DNA from: Acidimicrobiia bacterium | Lineage (GTDB): Bacteria; Actinomycetota; Acidimicrobiia; Acidimicrobiales; Poriferisodalaceae | DNA length: 45,216 nt | Assembly (NCBI GenBank): GCA_022827265.1 | Contig: JAJDTF010000073.1 | Location: 1-45,216 of the forward strand | Direction: 5' to 3' | Shown: in pieces, positions 3,848 to 45,215 of the stretch | How the letters are laid out: each line of letters begins with the position of its first letter | Position numbering within the stretch: position 1 is the stretch's first letter | Position numbers and translations under genes: made by a program | Notes under the pieces: model-generated | The model's input: only the letters and a program-made list of their open reading frames with translations | What the model was told of the DNA's origin: nothing | The model's database searches: none

Positions 3848-4254
3848 CCGGGGGCGAGCGCGCCGAACTTGTCCATCAGGCCCGGGGGCGGGCGGCGGGG
3901 CTTGCCGTCGTTGTCGCAGATGGCCGCAGTCAGGCTGCCCTCGACCAGCACGGCGTCGTCAGATTCGCGGATGATGCGCTGCTGCCAGCGGGTGCTCGCA
4001 CGGCGACGCTCGACCAACTCGGTCTCGACGCGCAGCGTGTCCCGGGCGGTCGCAGGCGCCCGGAAACGCACTTCGAGGTTGGTCACCACGATCTGCACGT
4101 TCTGATCTGACAGGTCCGGCAGCGCGAGGTCGGCAGATTCCAGCGCCAGGCAACGCGCCGCCTCGAAGTACGACACGTAGACCGCGTGGTTGACGTGGTT
4201 GTACGGGTCCAGCTCGCCGAATCGCGGAACGACCTGGGTCGCGTGCGTCGCCAT
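3844..4254 (-). CDS. acyl-CoA thioesterase, 4HBT hotdog family
   Basis: A 136-residue single-hotdog protein that probably hydrolyses an acyl-CoA thioester in the cytoplasm. The signature is FGELDPYNHVNHAVYVSYFE near residues 11-30, with the family Asp followed by HVNHA. I chose the ATG at 4254, giving MATHATQVV, because hotdog similarity starts just after it and because TAGCGT sits 7 nt upstream as a leaderless -10. The frame remains open to 4359, but that extension is encoded by a 30-bp tandem repeat and is unlikely to be protein. The gene is convergent with the SDR gene and its stop overlaps that gene's stop. Confidence 0.85.
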   Translation of the reverse strand: MATHATQVVPRFGELDPYNHVNHAVYVSYFEAARCLALESADLALPDLSDQNVQIVVTNLEVRFRAPATARDTLRVETELVERRRASTRWQQRIIRESDDAVLVEGSLTAAICDNDGKPRRPPPGLMDKFGALAPG

Positions 4255-4261
4255 CGGAGGA

Positions 4262-4267
4262 ACGCTA
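4262..4267 (-). promoter_or_regulatory. -10 element TAGCGT for the thioesterase gene
   Basis: Read on the minus strand, TAGCGT is followed by 7 nt and then the ATG at 4254. The intervening bases contain no Shine-Dalgarno sequence. This matches the leaderless pattern seen at other starts in the window. Confidence 0.45.
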
Positions 4268-4291
4268 GTGGGCAGCCGCCCCCTGCCATCC

Positions 4292-4360
4292 GCTGGCATC
4301 CGTGACGATCCGCCATGATCTGCTGGCATCCATGACGATCCGCCGCAATCTGCTGCCATC
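4292..4360. repeat. 30-bp tandem repeat, 2.3 copies
   Basis: Two full 30-bp units (4292-4321 and 4322-4351) differ at only a few bases and are followed by a 9-bp partial copy. They lie between the divergent thioesterase and Ppx/GppA genes. The repeat is a multiple of three and stays open on the minus strand, so it could be read as a ten-residue peptide repeat, but the leaderless start at 4254 excludes it from the protein. Confidence 0.75.
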
Positions 4361-4384
4361 TTCGGTGACGGCGCGCTCGCCCTC

Positions 4385-4390
4385 TAGCGT
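4385..4390 (+). promoter_or_regulatory. -10 element TAGCGT for ppx/gppA
   Basis: TAGCGT ends 8 nt before the GTG at 4399. Because it overlaps the upstream TTG candidate, it supports the downstream start. Confidence 0.45.
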
Positions 4391-4398
4391 TGCGGCAC

Positions 4399-6069
4399 GT
4401 GAGCGTCATCGCCGCGATCGACGCGGGCACGAATTCGTTCCATCTCGTCGTCGCCGATGTCGACGACAAGGGCCACTTCGATGTGCTCACACGCGAGCGC
4501 GAGCCGGTGCGGCTCGGCTCGGGCGGCGAGGACATGAAACGCCTCGAACCCGATGCCATGGATCGCGGCATCTCGACGCTGGATCGGATGCGACGCATCG
4601 CCGACCACGCCGGCGCCACTTCAGTCACCGCAGTGGCCACCAGCGCGGTGCGCGAAGCCGACAACCGGGGCGAGTTTGTGGCACGGGCACTGTCCGAGGC
4701 CGGCGTCGACATCGAGGTGGTTTCCGGAGTCGAGGAGGCCCGGCTGATCCACCTCGGCGTGCTGGCGGCCGTGCCGCTGCTCGACAAGCGGCACCTGATC
4801 ATCGACATCGGCGGCGGCTCCACGGAGTTCATCGTCGGCGACGGCGCCGAGCCGCTGCTGCTGCGCAGTCTCAAGCTCGGATCGATCCGGCTCACCGACC
4901 GCTTCTTCCCAGAAGGCCGCACGCGAGAGCGCTCCGTGCACGAGTGCCGCAACTACATCAGATCGTTCCTGGGCCACCTGCCGACAGAAGTCGCGGAACT
5001 CGGCTTCGAAACCGCCGTCGGCTCGTCGGGAACGATCATCGCCTTGGCACGCATGTGCGCCATCCGGCGCGGAGATCGCGACAACCGCACCGGGAGGCTG
5101 TCATTCACACGCAAAGAGCTCCGATCGCTCACGACCGACCTCACCGACGCCGCGACACCTGCTCGCCGGCTGTCTGTCGAGGGGTTGGAGGAACGCCGGG
5201 CAGACATCATCGTGGGCGGCGCGCTGCTGCTGGCGGAGACGTTCAAGCTGCTGGGCATCAAGCGCATGGAAGTTTCCGACTACGCGCTGCGTGAGGGCAT
5301 TCTCTTCGAGCAGATGCGGCGGGCAGCAGCGCCCGAGCTCGACCCGTTCCACCGTTTGGAGGATCTGCGGCGCTCCGGCGTGATGTATGTGGCAAACAGC
5401 TACCACGAAGATCTGCGGCACGCCGAGCACATCACCGACCTGGCGCTGGAGTTGTTCGACGGCCTCTGCGGACTGCACGGACTCGACGAAGAGGACCGGG
5501 AGCTGTTCGAGGCGGCTTCGCTGCTGCACAACGTGGGCATCTTCATCTCCCACAGTGCCCACCACCGCCACAGCTACTACATCATCCGCAACAGCGAGCA
5601 CCTCACCGGCTTCACCGAACGCGAGATCGAGATCATCGCCCAAGTCGCTCGCTACCACCGCAAGAGCGCGCCGAAGCTGAAGCATGCCGATTTCGCCTCG
5701 CTCAGCCGGATCGATCAAGAAAAGGTGCGCTGGATGGCGGCCATGCTGCGCGTGGCCATCGGTTTGGATCGCTCCAATCGCCAGGTGGTGACCCGGATAC
5801 GAGCAGCGGGCGCGACGGCCGACGCTTCGCTGTCGCACGATTGCGAGCTCCGCTTGATTGCCCGTGTCTCGCCTGGCGTCGACACCTCAGTGGAACTGTT
5901 CACTGCACAGATCCGCAGCAAGCTCCTCGAATCAGTCACGGGGCGCACGGTGGTGATCGAATCTGAAATCACCGCGACCGGCAAGCCGACGCACCCCACG
6001 AACGGGATGCACAGCTCCGCACCGATGACGTCGGACCCGCCCGGTGACGCGACGCCTGCTCCTGCCTGA
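4399..6069 (+). CDS. Ppx/GppA phosphatase with C-terminal HD domain
   Basis: A 556-residue exopolyphosphatase or guanosine pentaphosphate phosphatase. It would release phosphate from polyphosphate or convert pppGpp to ppGpp. The N-terminal actin-like ATPase fold has IDAGTNSFHLVVADV at the start and IIDIGGGSTEFIVG near residue 135, the two phosphate loops of the family. From about residue 315 an HD-type domain follows, with HAEHITDL, the pair LLHNVGIFISHS, and YHRKSAP. I prefer the GTG at 4399, because TAGCGT at 4385-4390 lies 8 nt before it and overlaps the alternative TTG at 4390. The C-terminal 20 residues are low complexity. Stringent-response or phosphate-storage control is inferred from family knowledge. 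Confidence 0.88.
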   Translation: MSVIAAIDAGTNSFHLVVADVDDKGHFDVLTREREPVRLGSGGEDMKRLEPDAMDRGISTLDRMRRIADHAGATSVTAVATSAVREADNRGEFVARALSEAGVDIEVVSGVEEARLIHLGVLAAVPLLDKRHLIIDIGGGSTEFIVGDGAEPLLLRSLKLGSIRLTDRFFPEGRTRERSVHECRNYIRSFLGHLPTEVAELGFETAVGSSGTIIALARMCAIRRGDRDNRTGRLSFTRKELRSLTTDLTDAATPARRLSVEGLEERRADIIVGGALLLAETFKLLGIKRMEVSDYALREGILFEQMRRAAAPELDPFHRLEDLRRSGVMYVANSYHEDLRHAEHITDLALELFDGLCGLHGLDEEDRELFEAASLLHNVGIFISHSAHHRHSYYIIRNSEHLTGFTEREIEIIAQVARYHRKSAPKLKHADFASLSRIDQEKVRWMAAMLRVAIGLDRSNRQVVTRIRAAGATADASLSHDCELRLIARVSPGVDTSVELFTAQIRSKLLESVTGRTVVIESEITATGKPTHPTNGMHSSAPMTSDPPGDATPAPA

Positions 6070-36003: not shown

Positions 36004-39000
36004 CTATATGGCACCAACGAGCTCGGAACCGTCGTCGGTGAGTTCGAGCCGAACGTAAGAAGTGCCACCGAACTCGTCGGCGACGGCAGCAACGAGGCCC
36101 TTGTCGATCAACGCGTCGACTGCTGCGCTCACGTCCTTCTCGCCAAGGAACGCCAGTCGGCCCGCTGACGGGTGCTTCATCAGCCCCGGGCGCGCACCAT
36201 TCGCCCCGACGGCATCCGCACCCCACAGGTTGCCTGCGAGAGTACGTTCGATGTTCTTGCGTGAGTACCGTGAATACCCCCATCGGGCGACATCGGCTAG
36301 CAAGCCGAGGATGATCTGAGCAACCGGCAACGCCTCTCGCAGACCGGCCTCGGTGAGATAGCTGTCGGCCCAAGGCCGCGGCAGGTCAGCACACACATCG
36401 CAACGGCCGCAGCCGCCGTCGGCCGCTAGTGGCCGATCAGCCGCAGCGTCCAGATACTCGAGCAGGGCCGCGACCCGACACGAGCGGCGGTCGCGTGCGA
36501 ACGCCTTGGCGCGGTCCGACTTGTCGGCCACCTCGCTGCGGCGATCTTCGCACTGTCGTTCGACCTCTGCCCAGTCCGGTTGGCCTTGGGAACACTCAAG
36601 CACCCATCCGTACTTCCAGACGGTGAACCCGATGACGTCTCGGTGGTGGAGCTCAAGCAGGTCCTGCGCGACCTCCACCTCGGATCGCCCGAGGTCCTTC
36701 GACCACTGCAGTGCGTCATAGCGGCCGTCATGTTGCTCCGCCAGTTCAATGAGCCGCTGGGCGCGTGCGATGAACTCCGGTCCGACCGTCGCGTTTCTCT
36801 GCAGGCCCGCGACCCCGTCGGTGTCCGGCGCGTTGGAATCGCCCGACACGTCGATCAGGTGCAGCTCGCTGAGTCGCTTGCGGGAGTCGTCGATGATCGT
36901 GACGCGACCCTCCCACGGCGTGTCAGGGTGGCGCTTCAGAACGTCTGCGAGCGCCAAGTAGTGGACGGCGAGCGAGGTCGCGACCGATTCCGCGTCACTC
37001 TCGCGGGTCGCGTCATCGGGGCGATCGACGAGATCCTCCGGGTCGTATGAGCCCAGGCCCGGCAGCAGCTTCGCCCAGATGCTGCGCACCTGCTCGATAG
37101 ACGGTGCGGCGCTGCGGACGAAGATCCGATGGATGGAGCAGTCCTTCGGCATCCTCAACAGCACTGCCGTGCCGCCTGCAGGCATGCCGGGTTGACCGGC
37201 GCCGCGGGCGGCCCTGCCAGTTTCTTGGACGTATTCCTCGATGGTGGCGGGCATCTCGGAATGCACGATCAGGGCGATGTCCGGCTTGTCGATGCCCATC
37301 CCGAACGCCTTGGTGGCAACGACCACATCGACCTCGCCATGGCGAAATGCGTCTTCGACGTGCGACCTTGCGACTGTCTCCATGCCGCCGTGGTAGGCGC
37401 GCACCGTATGGCCGGCAACGCGCAGCAACCCGCTGATGCGCTCAGCGTCGCGCCGGGTCGGCACATAGACCACAGCTGCCTGGCGGCGAAACGACTCCAC
37501 CACCTGAGCGATGCGGACATCGCGGTCGCTGCGGTTCGCACAGACTTCGGTGAGATAGCTGATCTCAGGCCGATCCGGCGACAGCACTGTCGGCTCACGA
37601 GTCCGCAGTCTCAGCGACGCCAAAATGTCAGCACGCACGCGGTCATTGGCGGTGGCCGTCACTGCCAACAACGCCGGACCGTCACTCGCCACCGAGACTT
37701 TGCCGCGAGCGCTACCACGGCGACGCTGCGTCGGCGGCCCTCCGAGCAGTTCGATTGCCTCGGGAATCCTGGCGTACTCGGGCCGGAATGTATGTCCCCA
37801 CTGCGAGATGCAGTGCGCTTCGTCGATGGCGATCCGAGCGACGTCGACCTTGGAGAGCAGGCTGATGAACTCCTGCGACCACAGTCGTTCGGGGCTGATG
37901 TACAGCAGCTTGTAGCGGCCCAAGGTTGCGCCTCGCAAGATGTCGCGCCATTCGCTCTGCCCCACGCCGCTGTGGATGGCTGCCACCTCGGTGATGCCGC
38001 GGCGGCGCAAGTTCTCGACTTGATCGTTCATCAACGAGATCAAAGGCGACAGCACGAGCGTCACGCCAGGCATCAGCAGCGCCGGAATCTGGTAGGTGAT
38101 CGACTTGCCCGACCCTGTCGGCAGCACCGAGAGCGCATCTTCGCCTGCCATGAAGCGCCGCATGGTCTCGAGCTGGCCGGGTCGCCATCGTTCGAAGCCG
38201 AAGATCACACGCACACGGTCCAGTCGCTGCTCGACGATGCTGGCGTCTCGGGCCTGACGCTCGTCGAGCGCTAGCGCTCGGAGCTTCACCAGGGTGTCAT
38301 CAACCGGAACTGCATCCATGGCGCTCCGCAGCTCATCGGTCAGCTCGATGCCGTCGAGATGCCCGCAGATGCGGTCATACGCGTCGCTGGGATCACGTAC
38401 GCGGTGCTGCGCGGGCGGGCCTGGCAGCGTGCCGAGGATCTGATCGGAGTATGAGGTGGCTCGGCACAGGCGGTTGTCGAGTATCACGGTCACCCCGCGA
38501 TCGTCTGCCGTACGGATGAGCCGTCCTGCTCCCTGAGCCATCCTCAGTGCGGCGCGTGGCACGGCGTAGTCAGCGAACCCATCCTTGCCCTGCTGCTCCA
38601 AAGCTTCCATCCGGGCGCCCGAGATCGGGTCAGCAGGAGAGTCGAACGGGATCTTCTCCAAGAGGAGCAAGCTCAGCGCTTCGCCGGGGATGTCGACGCC
38701 CTCCCAGAACGAGCGCAGGGCGAGCAGACTGGTGGCCATCTCGGTTCTCATCCGGGCGACGAGCGCAGGTGCCGGTGCGTCGCCTTGTGCGAGCAGCGGT
38801 ATTCCGTGCTGATCGAGGTGGTCACGGAGCTTGCTGCGAGCAGCTTCCATGCGGGAACGAGCGGTGAACAACGCCATGGCCCGGCCTCGGGACAGCAGCA
38901 TCAGCCGCCCGGTCTCGCGGCCTGCCGCCTCGGTGAACTCGTCCATCAGACGTGCTCTGGGGGCTGGCAGCCAGTCAGCCAAGATCAGCAGATGCTGTTC

Positions 39001-41343
39001 GCTGAGCGCTTCGAATGGCGTGGGCAGCGCCTTCGTCTGGGCATCGCGGAGACCCAGTGAATTCAGGATGTGGCTGAAGTTGCCGCCCACTTGCAGGGTC
39101 GCCGATGTTGCGACTGTGGCGTCGAGCTCATTCCACAGCTGCCGCAACTGCGGCGCTACCGACAGGGGCACATGCCGCAGCAGCCATGCCCAGCGTCCTT
39201 CCGTGTACCGGACCTGACTGACTGCGATGCGCTGTTGCTCTTCAAGATTGGCAATCAGACTTGCGCTGTGTATCGCATCGCCGCCGTCTCCCGCAGCCTG
39301 CGGGCCTGCCGAGCCCGCGTCGGCGTGGATGACGCGGCGGACCGTCTTGGCGGCGTTTCGGGCAAAGCGCCCGAGGTGTCGCATCTCGGCTTCGAGGCGG
39401 TCGCGCCGGTACCGGCCGCGGAGTTGCTCGGGCAGGTTGATTGCGTTCAGCTCGCCGACGATGCCGTCCAAGGCTTCGGCCAGCGACCGCCCTTCGCGCA
39501 GCACCGCGTAGTAGTCGGGGTGCGCCGTGTCGATGCCGCGCCGGATTCGATACGACGAGGGGTAACGGTCGTCGGCACTCGCAGCCGTTCGCACGCGCAC
39601 GTAGGCCGACAGTTCCGAGCCGAAGCGCGGCAACTGATCCCGCACGGCGGAGACACAGCGGCGCAGGTCGGTCAATGGCGCATCTCGCACTGACCAGCGT
39701 GCGGCGCGGGCGAGCCGGCTGACGGTTCCGCCCCCTCCGCCGCTCGGCGCGATCGCGTCGCAGAGCTGCTCGATCTCACGCTCGCCGATCTCCGCCGCCA
39801 GCGCATCGGTCGCCGAGTCTTCGAGGTTGTGTGCCTCGTCGAGCACCAGGTGTTTGGCGTGATCGAGCCACTCGTGGTCGGTCACGACCAGTGCATGGTT
39901 CAGCACGGCCACGTCCGCATGGCGCAGCCCGTCACGAGCACGGCGATAGAAGCACCGCCTGTCCAAATCTGTCGTTGCCGGACCCGGCCGCTCGCTCACC
40001 GAGAGCACGAATCGAAGACCTGACATGACGTTTCGAACGTCGCTGCTCAGCGCCCACGTATTGAGATCGTCCCAATCGCCCGTCGGCGTCTGGGAGACCC
40101 AGCCGCTCAGGACCGCGAGCGCGAGACCGCGCACTGCCCGGGGCGAGCCAGCCGTGCGATCAGGATCATGCCCCGGTGGCGAGGTGTCGACCGCGGCCTC
40201 ATCCCGTTCGTCGCGGGATTGATCGCCTCTGACAACCAACTCGTGAAGCTCGCTTTCCAAAGCGGCCACGTCGATGTAGTTGCCCTTGCCCTTGAGCAGC
40301 ACCCAACTAAACGGGGCCAAGAGCGACGTCAGATCCTCAAGGGAGTGCGCGATCTGGTCCTGAAGCACCTTGGAATGCGGAGCGATTGCAACCGTCGCGC
40401 CGCTGGCGCGGGCATATTCGATCGCTGGCGCGAGATAGGCGAAGGTCTTGCCCGTTCCCGTCGGGGCCTCAATCAGCCAACGTTCGCCATTGGCGAGCAC
40501 CGACGCCACCAAGCGAGCCATCTCGACCTGCTGCGCGCGTGGTGAGCGCCCGTGCGACATCAGCACGCCGCCGTCGTCAAGCATGCCCGCGGCCGCTTCT
40601 GGGTTGAATTTGAGTGTCGGTTCGCGCTGTTGCCGTTGCTTGGGCGCCGGGATAGTCGAGGCCAGCGACGGCGGGTCGGATTCGGCGTCAAGGAATGCGG
40701 ACCACGGGTGGGCGGTCGCGTGCAGCACCCAGCGTTGAAGGCGACGAGGCGGGGACTTTTCGTTCATCGACGCGAGCAGCGGGCTCAGCACATCAGCCAG
40801 CAGTCGGGCATCACCGAGCGCCCGGTGCTCGGAACGGGCGGTACGCCCCAAGAGCCGTTCCGCCAGATCGTCGAGGCTCCGCCCAGGTGGGGGCTTGCTG
40901 TCATCACTGCCGATCGTCATTTCCCGGCCGGCCCTCGGAAGCGCGAGGTGCGCCAACTCCAACGTGTCGAGACGTTGGCCACCGAGCGCTGGCAGCCCCG
41001 ACTGCGCCGCGGCCACATCCATCAGCGGGAAGTCGTAGCCGAAGCCGTTGTGAGCGATGAGCGGGCAATCGCCGACGAATGCAGCGAAGCTCTGCAAGGC
41101 CTCGGCCAAGGTCGGCGCTTGCGCCAAATCCTCGTCAGTCAAGCCCGTCAGTTCACGGGTCTGGGGTCGCAACGGCCGTGTAGGCCGCACCAACGTTGCG
41201 AAGTCGCCAGCTTCGACGCCGTCGATGACGAGCACGGCCCCGATCTCGATGATCTCATGGGCCGGCGGGTCGGAGCGATCCGCATTGGCTTCTAGGTCGA
41301 GCACCACGTATTCGCGCACAACCCACACCCCGAAGCCCGACAA
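36004..41343 (-). CDS. DEDDh exonuclease - DinG helicase - RecQ helicase fusion
   Basis: A 1779-residue protein with three enzymatic parts. Residues 1-190 form a DnaQ-like 3'-5' exonuclease: VVLDLEA with DxE near residue 13, AHNGFGYD near 95 and HRALGDARLLAD near 172. Residues 270-980 are DinG/XPD-like: APTGTGKT near 291, LDEAHNLE near 498 and SFWEGVDIPG. Residues 1040-1660 are RecQ: PTGSGKS near 1073, DEAHCISQWG near 1174, KAFGMGIDKPDI, and a CGRCDVC zinc loop near 1643. A winged-helix or HRDC-like C-terminus follows. In the DinG part the usual four-cysteine iron-sulfur cluster is absent: only one Cys is seen between the two helicase motifs. The start is taken as TTG 41343, with TAGCTT 9 nt upstream. 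It follows vapC by 50 bp. Confidence 0.88.
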   Translation of the reverse strand: MSGFGVWVVREYVVLDLEANADRSDPPAHEIIEIGAVLVIDGVEAGDFATLVRPTRPLRPQTRELTGLTDEDLAQAPTLAEALQSFAAFVGDCPLIAHNGFGYDFPLMDVAAAQSGLPALGGQRLDTLELAHLALPRAGREMTIGSDDSKPPPGRSLDDLAERLLGRTARSEHRALGDARLLADVLSPLLASMNEKSPPRRLQRWVLHATAHPWSAFLDAESDPPSLASTIPAPKQRQQREPTLKFNPEAAAGMLDDGGVLMSHGRSPRAQQVEMARLVASVLANGERWLIEAPTGTGKTFAYLAPAIEYARASGATVAIAPHSKVLQDQIAHSLEDLTSLLAPFSWVLLKGKGNYIDVAALESELHELVVRGDQSRDERDEAAVDTSPPGHDPDRTAGSPRAVRGLALAVLSGWVSQTPTGDWDDLNTWALSSDVRNVMSGLRFVLSVSERPGPATTDLDRRCFYRRARDGLRHADVAVLNHALVVTDHEWLDHAKHLVLDEAHNLEDSATDALAAEIGEREIEQLCDAIAPSGGGGGTVSRLARAARWSVRDAPLTDLRRCVSAVRDQLPRFGSELSAYVRVRTAASADDRYPSSYRIRRGIDTAHPDYYAVLREGRSLAEALDGIVGELNAINLPEQLRGRYRRDRLEAEMRHLGRFARNAAKTVRRVIHADAGSAGPQAAGDGGDAIHSASLIANLEEQQRIAVSQVRYTEGRWAWLLRHVPLSVAPQLRQLWNELDATVATSATLQVGGNFSHILNSLGLRDAQTKALPTPFEALSEQHLLILADWLPAPRARLMDEFTEAAGRETGRLMLLSRGRAMALFTARSRMEAARSKLRDHLDQHGIPLLAQGDAPAPALVARMRTEMATSLLALRSFWEGVDIPGEALSLLLLEKIPFDSPADPISGARMEALEQQGKDGFADYAVPRAALRMAQGAGRLIRTADDRGVTVILDNRLCRATSYSDQILGTLPGPPAQHRVRDPSDAYDRICGHLDGIELTDELRSAMDAVPVDDTLVKLRALALDERQARDASIVEQRLDRVRVIFGFERWRPGQLETMRRFMAGEDALSVLPTGSGKSITYQIPALLMPGVTLVLSPLISLMNDQVENLRRRGITEVAAIHSGVGQSEWRDILRGATLGRYKLLYISPERLWSQEFISLLSKVDVARIAIDEAHCISQWGHTFRPEYARIPEAIELLGGPPTQRRRGSARGKVSVASDGPALLAVTATANDRVRADILASLRLRTREPTVLSPDRPEISYLTEVCANRSDRDVRIAQVVESFRRQAAVVYVPTRRDAERISGLLRVAGHTVRAYHGGMETVARSHVEDAFRHGEVDVVVATKAFGMGIDKPDIALIVHSEMPATIEEYVQETGRAARGAGQPGMPAGGTAVLLRMPKDCSIHRIFVRSAAPSIEQVRSIWAKLLPGLGSYDPEDLVDRPDDATRESDAESVATSLAVHYLALADVLKRHPDTPWEGRVTIIDDSRKRLSELHLIDVSGDSNAPDTDGVAGLQRNATVGPEFIARAQRLIELAEQHDGRYDALQWSKDLGRSEVEVAQDLLELHHRDVIGFTVWKYGWVLECSQGQPDWAEVERQCEDRRSEVADKSDRAKAFARDRRSCRVAALLEYLDAAADRPLAADGGCGRCDVCADLPRPWADSYLTEAGLREALPVAQIILGLLADVARWGYSRYSRKNIERTLAGNLWGADAVGANGARPGLMKHPSAGRLAFLGEKDVSAAVDALIDKGLVAAVADEFGGTSYVRLELTDDGSELVGAI

Positions 41344-41392: not shown

Positions 41393-41812
41393 TCAGCGAC
41401 CAGCGTCGGCGGGGAGGATGCGGAATGGCTTGCCGCGCAGTGACTGAACGACGCGGAAGCGCCGCTCGTCGAGCGTCGCAATCGCAACCTCGTCGTACTT
41501 GTCGGCCAGGACGACCAGCGATGCATCGGCCAAGCCGAGCGGCAGGTCGCGATAGCGCTCGACGAGGGCGCTCGCCCGGACGAGATCGACGCAATCGAAT
41601 GCCGCTAGCTCGTACGCACCCGACGAGGTCTCCTCGAGCACTGCCAGCTCGGCGTCGACACCTGCGATGCGCGCCGTGAGGTAGTCGAGCTCCGCAAGCA
41701 CAAAGGGGGAGATCACCAGCGGACGGGCCTCGGCCAGTGTTTGGGCGCACGGCTCGTGCATCCGCTGGTCCGGCACAAATGCGGCCAGCAGGACGCTGGT
41801 GTCGACGATCAC
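41393..41812 (-). CDS. vapC: VapC-like PIN-domain toxin
   Basis: A 139-residue PIN-domain ribonuclease, at the typical VapC length. The acidic active site appears as IVDTSVLLAAF (Asp4), FVLAELDYLTARI with a Glu near residue 41, LGLADASLVVLADKYD near residue 92-107 and IATLDERRFRVV. VapC toxins cleave tRNA or rRNA when not held by their antitoxin. The ATG at 41812 overlaps the stop of the antitoxin in ATGA, which implies translational coupling. The gene ends 50 bp before the helicase fusion. Confidence 0.88.
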   Translation of the reverse strand: MIVDTSVLLAAFVPDQRMHEPCAQTLAEARPLVISPFVLAELDYLTARIAGVDAELAVLEETSSGAYELAAFDCVDLVRASALVERYRDLPLGLADASLVVLADKYDEVAIATLDERRFRVVQSLRGKPFRILPADAGR

Positions 41813-42036
41813 GTGCCAAAGCCGGTCTTGGCCAGGTATTCGTCGACGTTCTCGGCAATGTCAGGATCGCCCCACCCCTCGGCGAACAACGGGGTTGTAG
41901 GGCGCGCTTCACGCCGAGCGAGTGCCTCGACCAGCGCCTCGCGAACCAGCGCAGCCTCAGAGCAACGGGCTTCCTCCGCTGCGCGTTCGAGCCGTTCCTT
42001 GAGTTCGTCGGGCAGGTAGATCGTCGTCTGCTTCAT
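41809..42036 (-). CDS. vapB: VapB-like ribbon-helix-helix antitoxin
   Basis: A 75-residue antitoxin. The N-terminal MKQTTIYLPDELKERLERAA is a ribbon-helix-helix DNA-binding strand and helix of the CopG/MetJ type, which would dimerise on an operator. The C-terminal half, including DIAENVDEYLAKTGFGT, is the likely toxin-binding tail. It is the first gene of the vapBC pair and overlaps vapC by 4 bp. The palindromes upstream of its start are probable operators, so autoregulation is expected from family knowledge. Confidence 0.85.
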   Translation of the reverse strand: MKQTTIYLPDELKERLERAAEEARCSEAALVREALVEALARREARPTTPLFAEGWGDPDIAENVDEYLAKTGFGT

Positions 42037-43650: not shown

Positions 43651-44118
43651 TCAGCCGTCGCCCATCTCGGCCATGGCGGCCTCGGAGCGGCGGGCCATCT
43701 CCTCGGGGTCGATGTCCTCGATGTGGGTGGTGAGGTTCCATCGATGGCCCCACGGATCCTCGATCATGCCCGAGCGGTCGCCGTAGAACTGATCCACGAC
43801 GGGCCGCACCTCGGTGGCACCGGCCGCGAGCGCCGCAGCGAACGTGGCGTCGACGTCCTCCACGTACACGCTCATCTGCACGGGCGATCCGCCGTAGTGC
43901 TTGGGTGACTGGAACTCCATCTCCGGAAACTCGTCGGCCACCATGATGAGCGAGTCGCCGAGCGTCAGTTCAGAGTGGCCGATCCTGTCTCCCATGTCGA
44001 TGCGCATCCGCTCGGTCATACCGAGCACCTCGGTATAGAACGCGATGGCATCTGCAGCGCCGTCGATGCTCATCGACACCGAGATGCGCGGGTAGTCGTC
44101 GGGAATGGGGTTCACCAT
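43651..44118 (-). CDS. VOC-fold glyoxalase/bleomycin-resistance-like protein
   Basis: A 155-residue protein of the PhnB-like branch of the vicinal-oxygen-chelate fold. The paired beta-alpha-beta units are seen: SIDGAADAIAFYTEVLGM near residue 17 and SVYVEDVDATFAAALAAGAT near residue 83. The closing DPWGHRWNLTTHIED near residue 122 is typical of PhnB-like proteins. Metal-binding residues are less certain. An AGGAG site lies 9 nt before the ATG at 44118. It is downstream of the selenoprotein gene on the same strand, with an 87-bp gap, so they may be co-transcribed. Confidence 0.85.
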   Translation of the reverse strand: MVNPIPDDYPRISVSMSIDGAADAIAFYTEVLGMTERMRIDMGDRIGHSELTLGDSLIMVADEFPEMEFQSPKHYGGSPVQMSVYVEDVDATFAAALAAGATEVRPVVDQFYGDRSGMIEDPWGHRWNLTTHIEDIDPEEMARRSEAAMAEMGDG

Positions 44119-44205: not shown

Positions 44206-44754
44206 CTAGTGCGCCACCAGCACCCTGACGGCCTGCTCCACCGCCGTTTCGGCGCGGGCTTCGAGCCCTGCTTGGTCAGCACTGGCGATGGGGTGCTCGA
44301 TCACGGTGAACGGATGATCCGGCACGCCCTGCACCCGGGCCATCAGCTCGGCGGCATCAATGAATGCACTGGTCATCACGCTGATCGCGGGCACGCCGAC
44401 CCGTTCGGCGGCGACGGCGTCGTGCAGACTGCACGACGAGCAGCTGCCTCAATCGCCGACACCGGCGAGCACTGCGTCCCAGCCCATCGCCTCGGCCAGC
44501 AGCTCGTGCTGCGCGGGCGCGCTGTAGTTGGTCTTGATCCGCCGGATCACCTTGGCCACTCCATGACGGTCGCGCAGCAGGCGCTCGATATGGTCGAAGA
44601 ACGGCTTGGTGTTCTCCTTGCCGTTGGAGATGACGCCGATGGTGGTGCTCTTGAGCGTCGTCAGCCGCGCCGGCGGGGCGAAACCTGCGGGATCCTGCTC
44701 ATGTGTCGGGTCCAGCAGTTCCACACTGTCCTCCGTGGCGGTTCTCAGCGGCAT
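44206..44754 (-). CDS. UGSC-family selenoprotein (in-frame TGA read as selenocysteine)
   Basis: A single 182-codon frame interrupted by one TGA at 44451-44449. Before it, 101 codons encode a Rossmann-like start (TTIGVISNGKENTKPFFDHI) and end AVLAGVGD; after it, 80 codons continue GSCSSCSLHDAVAAER through VMTSAFIDAAELMARV and HPIASADQAGLEAR to a TAG. The junction spells U-G-S-C-S-S-C, the motif that names the UGSC family, which as I recall includes both selenocysteine and cysteine members. The UGA is followed by a SECIS-like hairpin. The Sec would be residue 102 with ATG 44754, or 104 with the nearby ATG at 44760. A redox role of the U/C pair is inferred. No SelA, SelB, SelD or tRNA-Sec gene is in the window. 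Confidence 0.88.
44418..44438 (-). promoter_or_regulatory. candidate bacterial SECIS element
   Basis: On the mRNA, arms CGUCGUGCA and UGCACGACG form nine perfect pairs around a three-nucleotide loop GUC. The stem begins 10 nt after the UGA, and the loop starts 20 nt after it. The bacterial SECIS consensus, as I recall it, asks for a small loop with G in the first or second position and about 16-37 nt between UGA and loop; both conditions are met. It would bind SelB to recode the UGA. The stem lies within coding sequence (CSLHD), so its pairing must satisfy both codons and structure. Confidence 0.8.
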
Positions 44755-44843
44755 GACCATCGGCACGCTGGCGTGGGCGGGCAGAGGGTCAGCTACATGC
44801 TGCCACGAACGCTGCGCCGAGCCTCGGGCGTGCCATTGGTCGC

Positions 44844-45215
44844 TCAGCCGTTGACACTGTCGAAGCCTGCGTACAGGAACTCGAACACGGCGCTCGCGGG
44901 GTCTGCCGCAGCGATGATCTCCGCATAGGGCAGCGACGCCCCGCCGAAGGCATCGTCGTTCCAGTACGGATCGCTGCGATCCGCCCCGCCCCACAGCCCC
45001 ACGTAGGCATACGGGAACGGGTGCGCAGCGTCGCCGGGTGACAGGCCGTAGGTGGCTCGGGTACCGGCCTCGGCAACGCCGATGGCCGTTGCGATGTCGA
45101 AATGGCCGGGCCACAGCTGGATCTCGTCGGGCTCCGCTGCACCGGGCAGCTCGTGCAACTGTCCGAGCGCACGCTTGCCGAGCCGGAACCATGCCGCCAG
45201 GTGCGCACCGATCTC
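44844..45215 (-). CDS. unknown protein, C-terminal 123 residues
   Basis: A gene that enters from beyond the window's right edge; its last 123 codons are visible. The frame is open to the edge and reads EIGAHLAAWFRLGKRALG, then EIQLWPGHFDIATAIGVAEA, SPGDAAHPFPYAYVGLW and FGGASLPYAEIIAA. The WPGHFD and PFPYAYVG blocks look like a conserved family of actinobacteria, but I cannot name it. It is on the same strand as the selenoprotein and ends 83 bp before that gene's start, so the two may be in one transcript. Confidence 0.7.
   Translation of the reverse strand, partial: EIGAHLAAWFRLGKRALGQLHELPGAAEPDEIQLWPGHFDIATAIGVAEAGTRATYGLSPGDAAHPFPYAYVGLWGGADRSDPYWNDDAFGGASLPYAEIIAAADPASAVFEFLYAGFDSVNG

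Follow-up and report, generated by a model that had tools for sequence, protein, structure and literature searches.

The UGSC family of selenoproteins has been known since 2008, when a survey of ocean sequences found it to be the fifth most numerous selenoprotein family, with 255 sequences (PMC2398784). The passages that deal with it call the family thioredoxin (Trx)-like and uncharacterised in function (PMC2398784, PMC13188914), and a 2026 review still names it among the selenoproteins of largely uncharacterised function (PMC13188914). The closest described systems are the selenoprotein B components of two-gene reductases. GrdB, for which the motif UxxCxxC has been named (PMC13188914), receives electrons during glycine reduction, together with GrdA, from NADPH through thioredoxin reductase and thioredoxin (PMC3091704). 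According to one proposal, the selenocysteine (Sec) of PrdB, residue 152 of 242 in C. sticklandii, attacks the alpha carbon of PrdA-bound proline (PMC3091704); according to another, the GrdB/GrdE-like pair FarB/FarE of Cloacibacillus breaks the C-F bond of fluoroacetate (PMC10838667). Here we describe a UGSC-family gene with an in-frame TGA in a 45,216-nucleotide (nt) stretch of DNA from an Acidimicrobiia bacterium (the window), which is the whole of contig C113 of a 3.8-Mb genome assembled in 163 contigs and 93.07% complete. What is new beyond the known family is a partner protein, here called U1, a probable kinship with selenoprotein B and evidence for a selenocysteine insertion sequence (SECIS); the original prediction had neither the partner nor the kinship.

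A UGSC-family gene interrupted by an in-frame TGA

The original prediction placed a UGSC selenoprotein at positions 44754–44206 (minus strand) and expected standard gene callers to report it as two short genes. Translation of this interval gave a frame open on both sides of exactly one in-frame TGA, at codon 102 (44449–44451), and ending with a TAG stop; the TGA falls, as had been proposed, on the U of the motif U-G-S-C-S-S-C (UxxCxxC), of which Sec is the first residue. The mechanical list of open reading frames (ORFs) contains the two halves as separate frames (44449–45192 and 44206–44394), so the gene would indeed be split by a standard caller. With TGA read as U, the protein matched PF24696 'UGSC' (E-value 1.7e-50, 172 bits, cut-off 25, residues 12–180) and NF041046 'UGSC family (seleno)protein' (132 bits, cut-off 125). 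By both models it is a further member of the known UGSC selenoprotein family, from which it shows no difference as a protein, and the statement in the original prediction that this family includes selenoproteins agrees with its published, computational identification (PMC2398784, PMC13188914). Of the predicted extent, the TAG end at 44206 stands and the ATG start at 44754 probably does not: translation probably begins at GTG 44724, since a putative Shine-Dalgarno sequence GGAGG (44730–44734, minus strand) lies 5 nt ahead of it, the tblastn match starts only at residue 8 in five of ten relatives, and one relative (L023) has ATG at the corresponding codon. The coding sequence with this start (44206–44724, minus strand) would specify 172 amino acids.

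The ten relatives were found by scanning six peptide patterns over GTDB genome contigs, and all are metagenome-assembled genomes titled Acidimicrobiia, Acidimicrobiales, Acidimicrobiaceae or Microthrixaceae. Every one of them has TGA at the same site, so that a sequencing error is very unlikely; in the alignment of the 11 sequences, the differences ahead of and behind the TGA are mostly synonymous. A search with PF24696 of 198 genomes of the same class gave matches in 68 (67 over the cut-off). Among the 137 UGSC places in this sample, 108 have one internal TGA, 28 have none and one has a TAG; the position of the TGA at the U was checked in the fetched loci only. Copies of the cysteine (Cys) form have TGC or TGT at the Sec position. 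A selA gene over the cut-off was present in 55 of the 56 genomes that have TGA copies, all but the 79% complete G188, and in three of the 11 genomes with only non-TGA copies. It was also present in 76 of the 130 class genomes without the family, so selA is common in the class regardless.

The genome of the window carries the Sec pathway that the original prediction implied, selB and tRNA-Sec included. The tRNA-Sec lies on contig C131 (67 bits, cut-off 47; anticodon TCA according to ARAGORN), selB (273 bits, cut-off 242) and selA (380 bits, cut-off 268) are near each other on C65, and selD is on C39 (L033, G000:C39:37080-38033, minus strand; 355 bits, cut-off 125). A second tRNA-Sec-like place, on C58, scored just over the cut-off (48.2 bits) and was called tRNA-Ser by ARAGORN. 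SelD has an in-frame TGA of its own within HGAG-U-ACKLG and is therefore probably a selenoprotein too. Judged from these sequence data, the original prediction holds, and the TGA of the window gene almost certainly encodes Sec.

A SECIS-like hairpin directly downstream of the UGA codon

A SECIS-like hairpin (44419–44437, minus strand) with a 7-bp stem GUCGUGC/GCACGAC and the loop AGUCU (44426–44430) starts 11 nt past the UGA, and folding, frozen synonymous sites, a recoding control and covariation all point to it. In codons 102–112, 10 of 11 positions use a single identical codon across the 11-sequence alignment, compared with about 21% elsewhere, and stretches of 42 to 64 nt past the UGA fold into GUCGUGC-AGUCU-GCACGAC or a slight variant. 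For a count over the fetched loci (rather than all 137 UGSC places of the class sample), three of 125 places, which have the motif U-G-A-C, were excluded and duplicates were merged, leaving 106 rows and 100 unique 45-mers (77 TGA, 23 Cys). The 77 TGA copies formed on average 6.25 of the seven stem pairs, compared with 4.42 after synonymous recoding, a value reached in none of 1000 recodings; all seven pairs were formed in 49 of them, and the loop began with AGU in 60, with 3.3 expected. The 23 Cys copies were not enriched (4.00 pairs, 3.75 after recoding; 160 of 1000 recodings): four had six or more stem pairs and one had the AGU loop start. In a covariation set of 15 hand-picked diverse TGA sequences (the window copy, 12 loci of the hairpin count and two plasmid copies), the stem was 85.7% paired, with 12 double-change cells and a score of 0.350, each reached by none of 500 shuffles, while the best slid register gave 47.6% pairing and a score of 0.208. 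The same hairpin follows the TGA in the plasmid copy from Acidovorax sp. T1, and also in that from Paracoccus ferrooxidans, where one of the pairs is G-U. In E. coli fdhF the UGA is followed by GGUUGC-AGGUCU-GCACC, whose loop is, by eye, like that of the window hairpin (AGGUCU and AGUCU). The Rfam scan of the region returned no SECIS match at the hairpin and one weak match to a different family.

Several observations speak against the hairpin. Folding energy provides weak evidence for it (z -0.6 to -2.0; equalled by 8 to 58 of 200 shuffles), and a 91-nt stretch prefers a different fold. Nineteen of the 77 TGA copies form fewer than six of the seven pairs in the fixed register, so that this register is not universal, and in the covariation set neither the number of pairs with a double change (three; 252 of 500 shuffles) nor that of further pair types (six; 154 of 500 shuffles) exceeded the shuffles. 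The conserved, covarying hairpin nevertheless makes a sequencing error unlikely, and together with the TGA in all ten relatives it leaves little room for the possibility, raised with the original prediction, that the TGA is an error for TGC or TGT.

UGSC resembles the catalytic domain of selenoprotein B

When 26 UGSC members were compared with Pfam and NCBIfam, counting matches at E-values up to 10, the selenoprotein B families were matched repeatedly: GrdB (TIGR01917) by 15 members (best 8.5e-7), the sarcosine-type GrdF by 12 (best 9.5e-6), the betaine-type GrdH by nine (best 2.1e-6) and TIGR01918 by seven (best 9.3e-7). PrdB was matched by four members, with a best value of only 0.047. Other weak matches came from few members: Pfam MCR_C (two, 0.002) and DUF116 (three, 0.037), and NCBIfam methan_mark_7 (two, 0.045) and PRK08931 (one, 0.0015). 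The GrdB match of the window protein falls on the expected stretch (residues 82–158 on model positions 329–397). In profile comparisons with hhalign, UGSC aligned with eight read-through GrdB proteins of the class at 67% (score 40.3), Sec column on Sec column, and with the last 150 GrdB columns at 86%; as controls for GrdB, 100 column shuffles scored at most 24.4, the reversed alignment 15.9 and the U1 alignment 18.0. Against 12 PrdB-like read-through proteins the value was 88.5% (score 45.9; 100 shuffles at most 24.1), again with Sec on Sec, and GrdB and PrdB-like proteins aligned with each other at 99.6%. When GrdB was truncated at the Sec codon, hhalign showed no signal with UGSC, as expected if the kinship sits around and after Sec. 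With selenoprotein B (GrdB, GrdF, GrdH; TIGR01917, NF040794, NF040795, PF07355) UGSC has in common the UxxCxxC motif, followed by a helix, E..G.P, a strand, A..G and HP, as well as the organisation in two-gene units and the many paralogues per genome. The full UxxCxxC is present in the window copy; its last Cys is kept neither in all UGSC members nor in all GrdB copies examined. UGSC differs from selenoprotein B in lacking some 250 residues ahead of the Sec domain, in scoring far under the equivalog cut-off and in having as its partner U1 and not a recognisable GrdE. PrdB is closer in its small size and in the position of Sec (152 of 242; 102 of 182 in the window protein), whereas no PrdA-like partner was found and, as stated above, PrdB matches are few. 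FarB/FarE would be a proposed precedent for a selenoprotein B pair adapted to a new C-X bond (PMC10838667), with the difference that these proteins are GrdB/GrdE homologues, whereas UGSC is remote from GrdB and U1 has no GrdE kinship.

Sequence comparison makes it likely, to a degree that we regard as strong, that UGSC is a short protein related to selenoprotein B (GrdB/GrdF/GrdH/PrdB), namely to its catalytic domain. On the other side of the balance, the window protein by itself matched TIGR01917 only at an E-value of 0.05, with 12.5 bits where the equivalog cut-off is 602.2, and none of the 26 members was shown to come near that cut-off (602 bits). The structure model of UGSC, built with 11 close sequences, was only moderate (predicted local distance difference test, pLDDT, 63; predicted template modelling score, pTM, 0.62), and its structural matches in the PDB were diffuse alpha/beta proteins, with one at an E-value of 0.001 or less and a template modelling score of about 0.5 at best. 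The model has five strands alternating with helices, with Sec after strand three. Searches of PDB sequences with the window protein and with the profiles of UGSC and GrdB returned chance-level matches or none. The passages on UGSC in PMC2398784, PMC13188914 and PMC9312934 contain no statement of a kinship with selenoprotein B.

Matches to selenoprotein B families were also seen elsewhere. In the genome of the window, three places match PF07355 weakly, in its C-terminal part (G000:C119:107363-107734, G000:C26:24114-24575 and G000:C127:4417-4614). Twelve short PF07355 relatives in other genomes (L093–L104) read through a TGA as PrdB-like proteins, and in eight full-length GrdB copies the Pfam match stops one codon ahead of the TGA.

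U1 accompanies UGSC almost throughout

The UGSC-bearing loci searched contain a neighbouring gene for a protein of about 350 residues, U1, with the motif GWTDGLPVVPPT...NAVMAGCxP; the loci without it in that search were the window copy (window, L029, L034) and a half gene at the edge of C46 (L068). When the same 198 class genomes were searched with a U1 profile, 69 had a match, and 65 of the 68 UGSC genomes were among them; four genomes had U1 without UGSC, two of these by weak matches. Copy numbers of UGSC and U1 were equal in 61 of the 65 genomes holding both. U1 lay within 300 nt of UGSC at 128 of the 137 places (within 100 nt at 106), and at none of the 137 was it farther away than 300 nt on the same contig. 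The nine places without U1 are mostly contig edges or fragments, the window copy included (G023:C23 was left outside this check). For the window copy, contig C159 (5759 nt) has an exact 141-nt end overlap with the window contig and carries U1 at 4028–5098, as well as the first part of a gene of about 259 codons that ends in the window; the C-terminal part of this uncharacterised protein (44844–45215, minus strand), cut by the contig end, had no family match, and the protein no Pfam match. The gene lies between U1 and UGSC in seven of eight listed relatives and is absent in L022. Directly downstream of UGSC, a glyoxalase/VOC protein (43651–44118, minus strand; PF00903, 1.1e-13) is found in all eight.

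The association extends to plasmids. Among 24 plasmid records with a UGSC or U1 match, 14 regions were fetched, and UGSC and U1 were adjacent or fused in all 14, with a weak UGSC match (22–23 bits) in two. Fused UGSC-U1 proteins of Sporomusa and Vibrio (L174:5323-7047 and L175:5323-7008) have Met instead of U or C, adjoin genes for aconitase X and DUF126, and may have a different activity. On pFER4 of Paracoccus ferrooxidans (L173, 5456–7113 and 10428–12203), a UGSC gene of the Sec form, which the annotation gives as two hypothetical ORFs, is followed by U1 and lies at most about 5 kb from selB, with genes for TusA, DsrE and a cysteine desulfurase nearby. Overall, UGSC-U1 was found in the class of the window, several proteobacterial classes, Actinomycetes and haloarchaea, with up to eight pairs in one sampled genome. 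Some of these lineages are not known to be strict anaerobes. A search of viral_contigs with one UGSC member returned no relatives. The 2008 survey reported UGSC fused to a domain 'Unknown_1' (PMC2398784), which we suppose to be U1.

That U1 is a near-constant partner of UGSC is accordingly highly probable, with one mid-contig UGSC copy lacking U1 (G146:C191) as a counterexample. In the family comparisons, 18 U1 members gave no Pfam or NCBIfam family at E-values up to 10 and none of GrdE or PrdA type, which rules out U1 as a GrdE or PrdA by sequence, and one member had no match among PDB sequences.

The genes around the pairs vary. The C74 copy has a nitrile hydratase neighbour, and a pair in the window's own genome (L065:5001-9008) directly adjoins genes for nitrile hydratase beta, alpha and accessory proteins; the C56 copy has a homocysteine S-methyltransferase neighbour, copies of the window type have amidohydrolase and AIM24 neighbours, and the Natrinema and Arthrobacter pairs have a phosphosulfolactate synthase. 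These differences from pair to pair would fit several substrate-specific pairs, without proving them. L065 also has a gene that resembles, by eye, a MaoC-type dehydratase.

Thioredoxin association and a possible mechanism

Thirty-four of 133 unique U1 proteins have an in-frame upstream (N-terminal) stretch with CxxC and [VT]P[TS] motifs, and a profile of ten such stretches matched solved thioredoxins (best 5.9e-6). In three of the 14 plasmid regions, those of Arthrobacter, Variovorax sp. SRS16 and Roseovarius, trxB is annotated near the pair, accompanied by trxA in Arthrobacter; one of the 14, that of Embleya, is unannotated. Small NifU-like proteins form a cluster represented in 17 of 82 loci; the representative of this cluster is just under the PF01106 cut-off, and in Arthrobacter a NifU-like domain is fused to UGSC (27.2 bits, cut-off 27).

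The best overall explanation, which we consider moderately probable, is that UGSC is a selenoprotein with Sec decoded at the hairpin and a small relative of selenoprotein B, acting with U1 as a two-component reductase. SelB and tRNA-Sec would decode the UGA at 44451–44449 with the help of the hairpin directly downstream. By analogy with GrdB and PrdB, U1 might then hold a small organic substrate, the selenolate of Sec in UxxCxxC could attack carbon and break a C-X bond, and a motif Cys could free the product as a selenenyl-sulfide. UGSC could finally be reset by thioredoxin, carried by one subfamily as a fusion to U1 or supplied from nearby trxA/trxB. Different UGSC-U1 pairs in one genome would serve different substrates. 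For thioredoxin-fed reductive cleavage itself, drawn from this analogy, we see an even balance of chances. Weighing against the overall explanation are the lack of a GrdE- or PrdA-type match for U1, the absence of the Cys of the NAVMAGC motif from two of 18 aligned U1 sequences (L080, L082) and the Trx-like stretches, which singly stay under the Pfam thioredoxin cut-offs. In addition, the structure model of U1 failed (pLDDT 34.5) and was not used.

The alternative that survives best is that UGSC-U1 is a selenol-dependent enzyme other than a C-X reductase, such as a lyase, an isomerase or a sulfur or selenium transferase, with Sec as nucleophile or ligand. The mixed contexts described above (nitrile hydratase, homocysteine S-methyltransferase, phosphosulfolactate synthase and the NifU-like domain) would suit such an enzyme, as would aconitase X beside the copies with Met for U, whereas the association with thioredoxin and the kinship with reductases argue for the reductase, and we regard the alternative as unlikely though worth keeping in view. 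It is less probable still, and in our judgement improbable, that UGSC is a Trx-fold thiol or selenol oxidoreductase with a general redox or antioxidant role, for which U1 would be a protein substrate or redox partner. This assignment would follow the listing of UGSC with Trx-like proteins in PMC13188914, and U-x-x-C does resemble the Trx active site in sequence. However, no Trx family was among the Pfam and NCBIfam families listed for the 26 members at E-values up to 10, the PDB profile search with UGSC gave no Trx, and no thioredoxin was among the 50 structural matches listed, on which grounds the Trx fold was rejected for UGSC. Since the fold model, with its five strands alternating with helices, is only moderate, it is the sequence result that carries weight here; moreover, GrdB-type families are matched repeatedly and in register, and some U1 proteins already have a separate Trx-like stretch fused to them. 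That the TGA is a true stop, in a pseudogene, through an assembly error or between two separate small genes as the two listed ORFs might suggest, can practically be dismissed, the TGA in all ten relatives and the frozen synonymous sites right after it ruling out sequencing error and pseudogene, with the mostly synonymous flanking variation, the SECIS-like hairpin and the full Sec machinery as further evidence against it.

Other features of the window

Two further features of the window lie on the same strand as UGSC. A single ORF of 1779 amino acids (36004–41343, minus strand) combines an exonuclease domain, a helicase region with Helicase_C_2, a second DEAD/Helicase_C helicase and a RecQ zinc region below the cut-off, and is, as we take it, apparently a DnaQ-DinG-RecQ-type fusion. 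Genes for a PIN-domain protein and an RHH/CopG protein, overlapping by 4 bases (41393–42036, minus strand), presumably form a VapBC-like toxin-antitoxin pair; neither was called at the corresponding position in L019, L026 and L028.

Significance for the UGSC family

Annotation loses or splits UGSC genes, as the Sec copy on pFER4 illustrates. Taken together, the kinship with selenoprotein B, the near-constant partner and the link to thioredoxin provide a testable enzyme hypothesis for UGSC. Tentatively, and at less than even chances, the UGSC-U1 pairs may represent a large and hitherto unrecognised class of two-component selenoenzymes, fed by thioredoxin and including Cys variants, which would apply the chemistry of selenoprotein B to one bond (C-N, C-S, C-O or C-halogen) in a specific small molecule.
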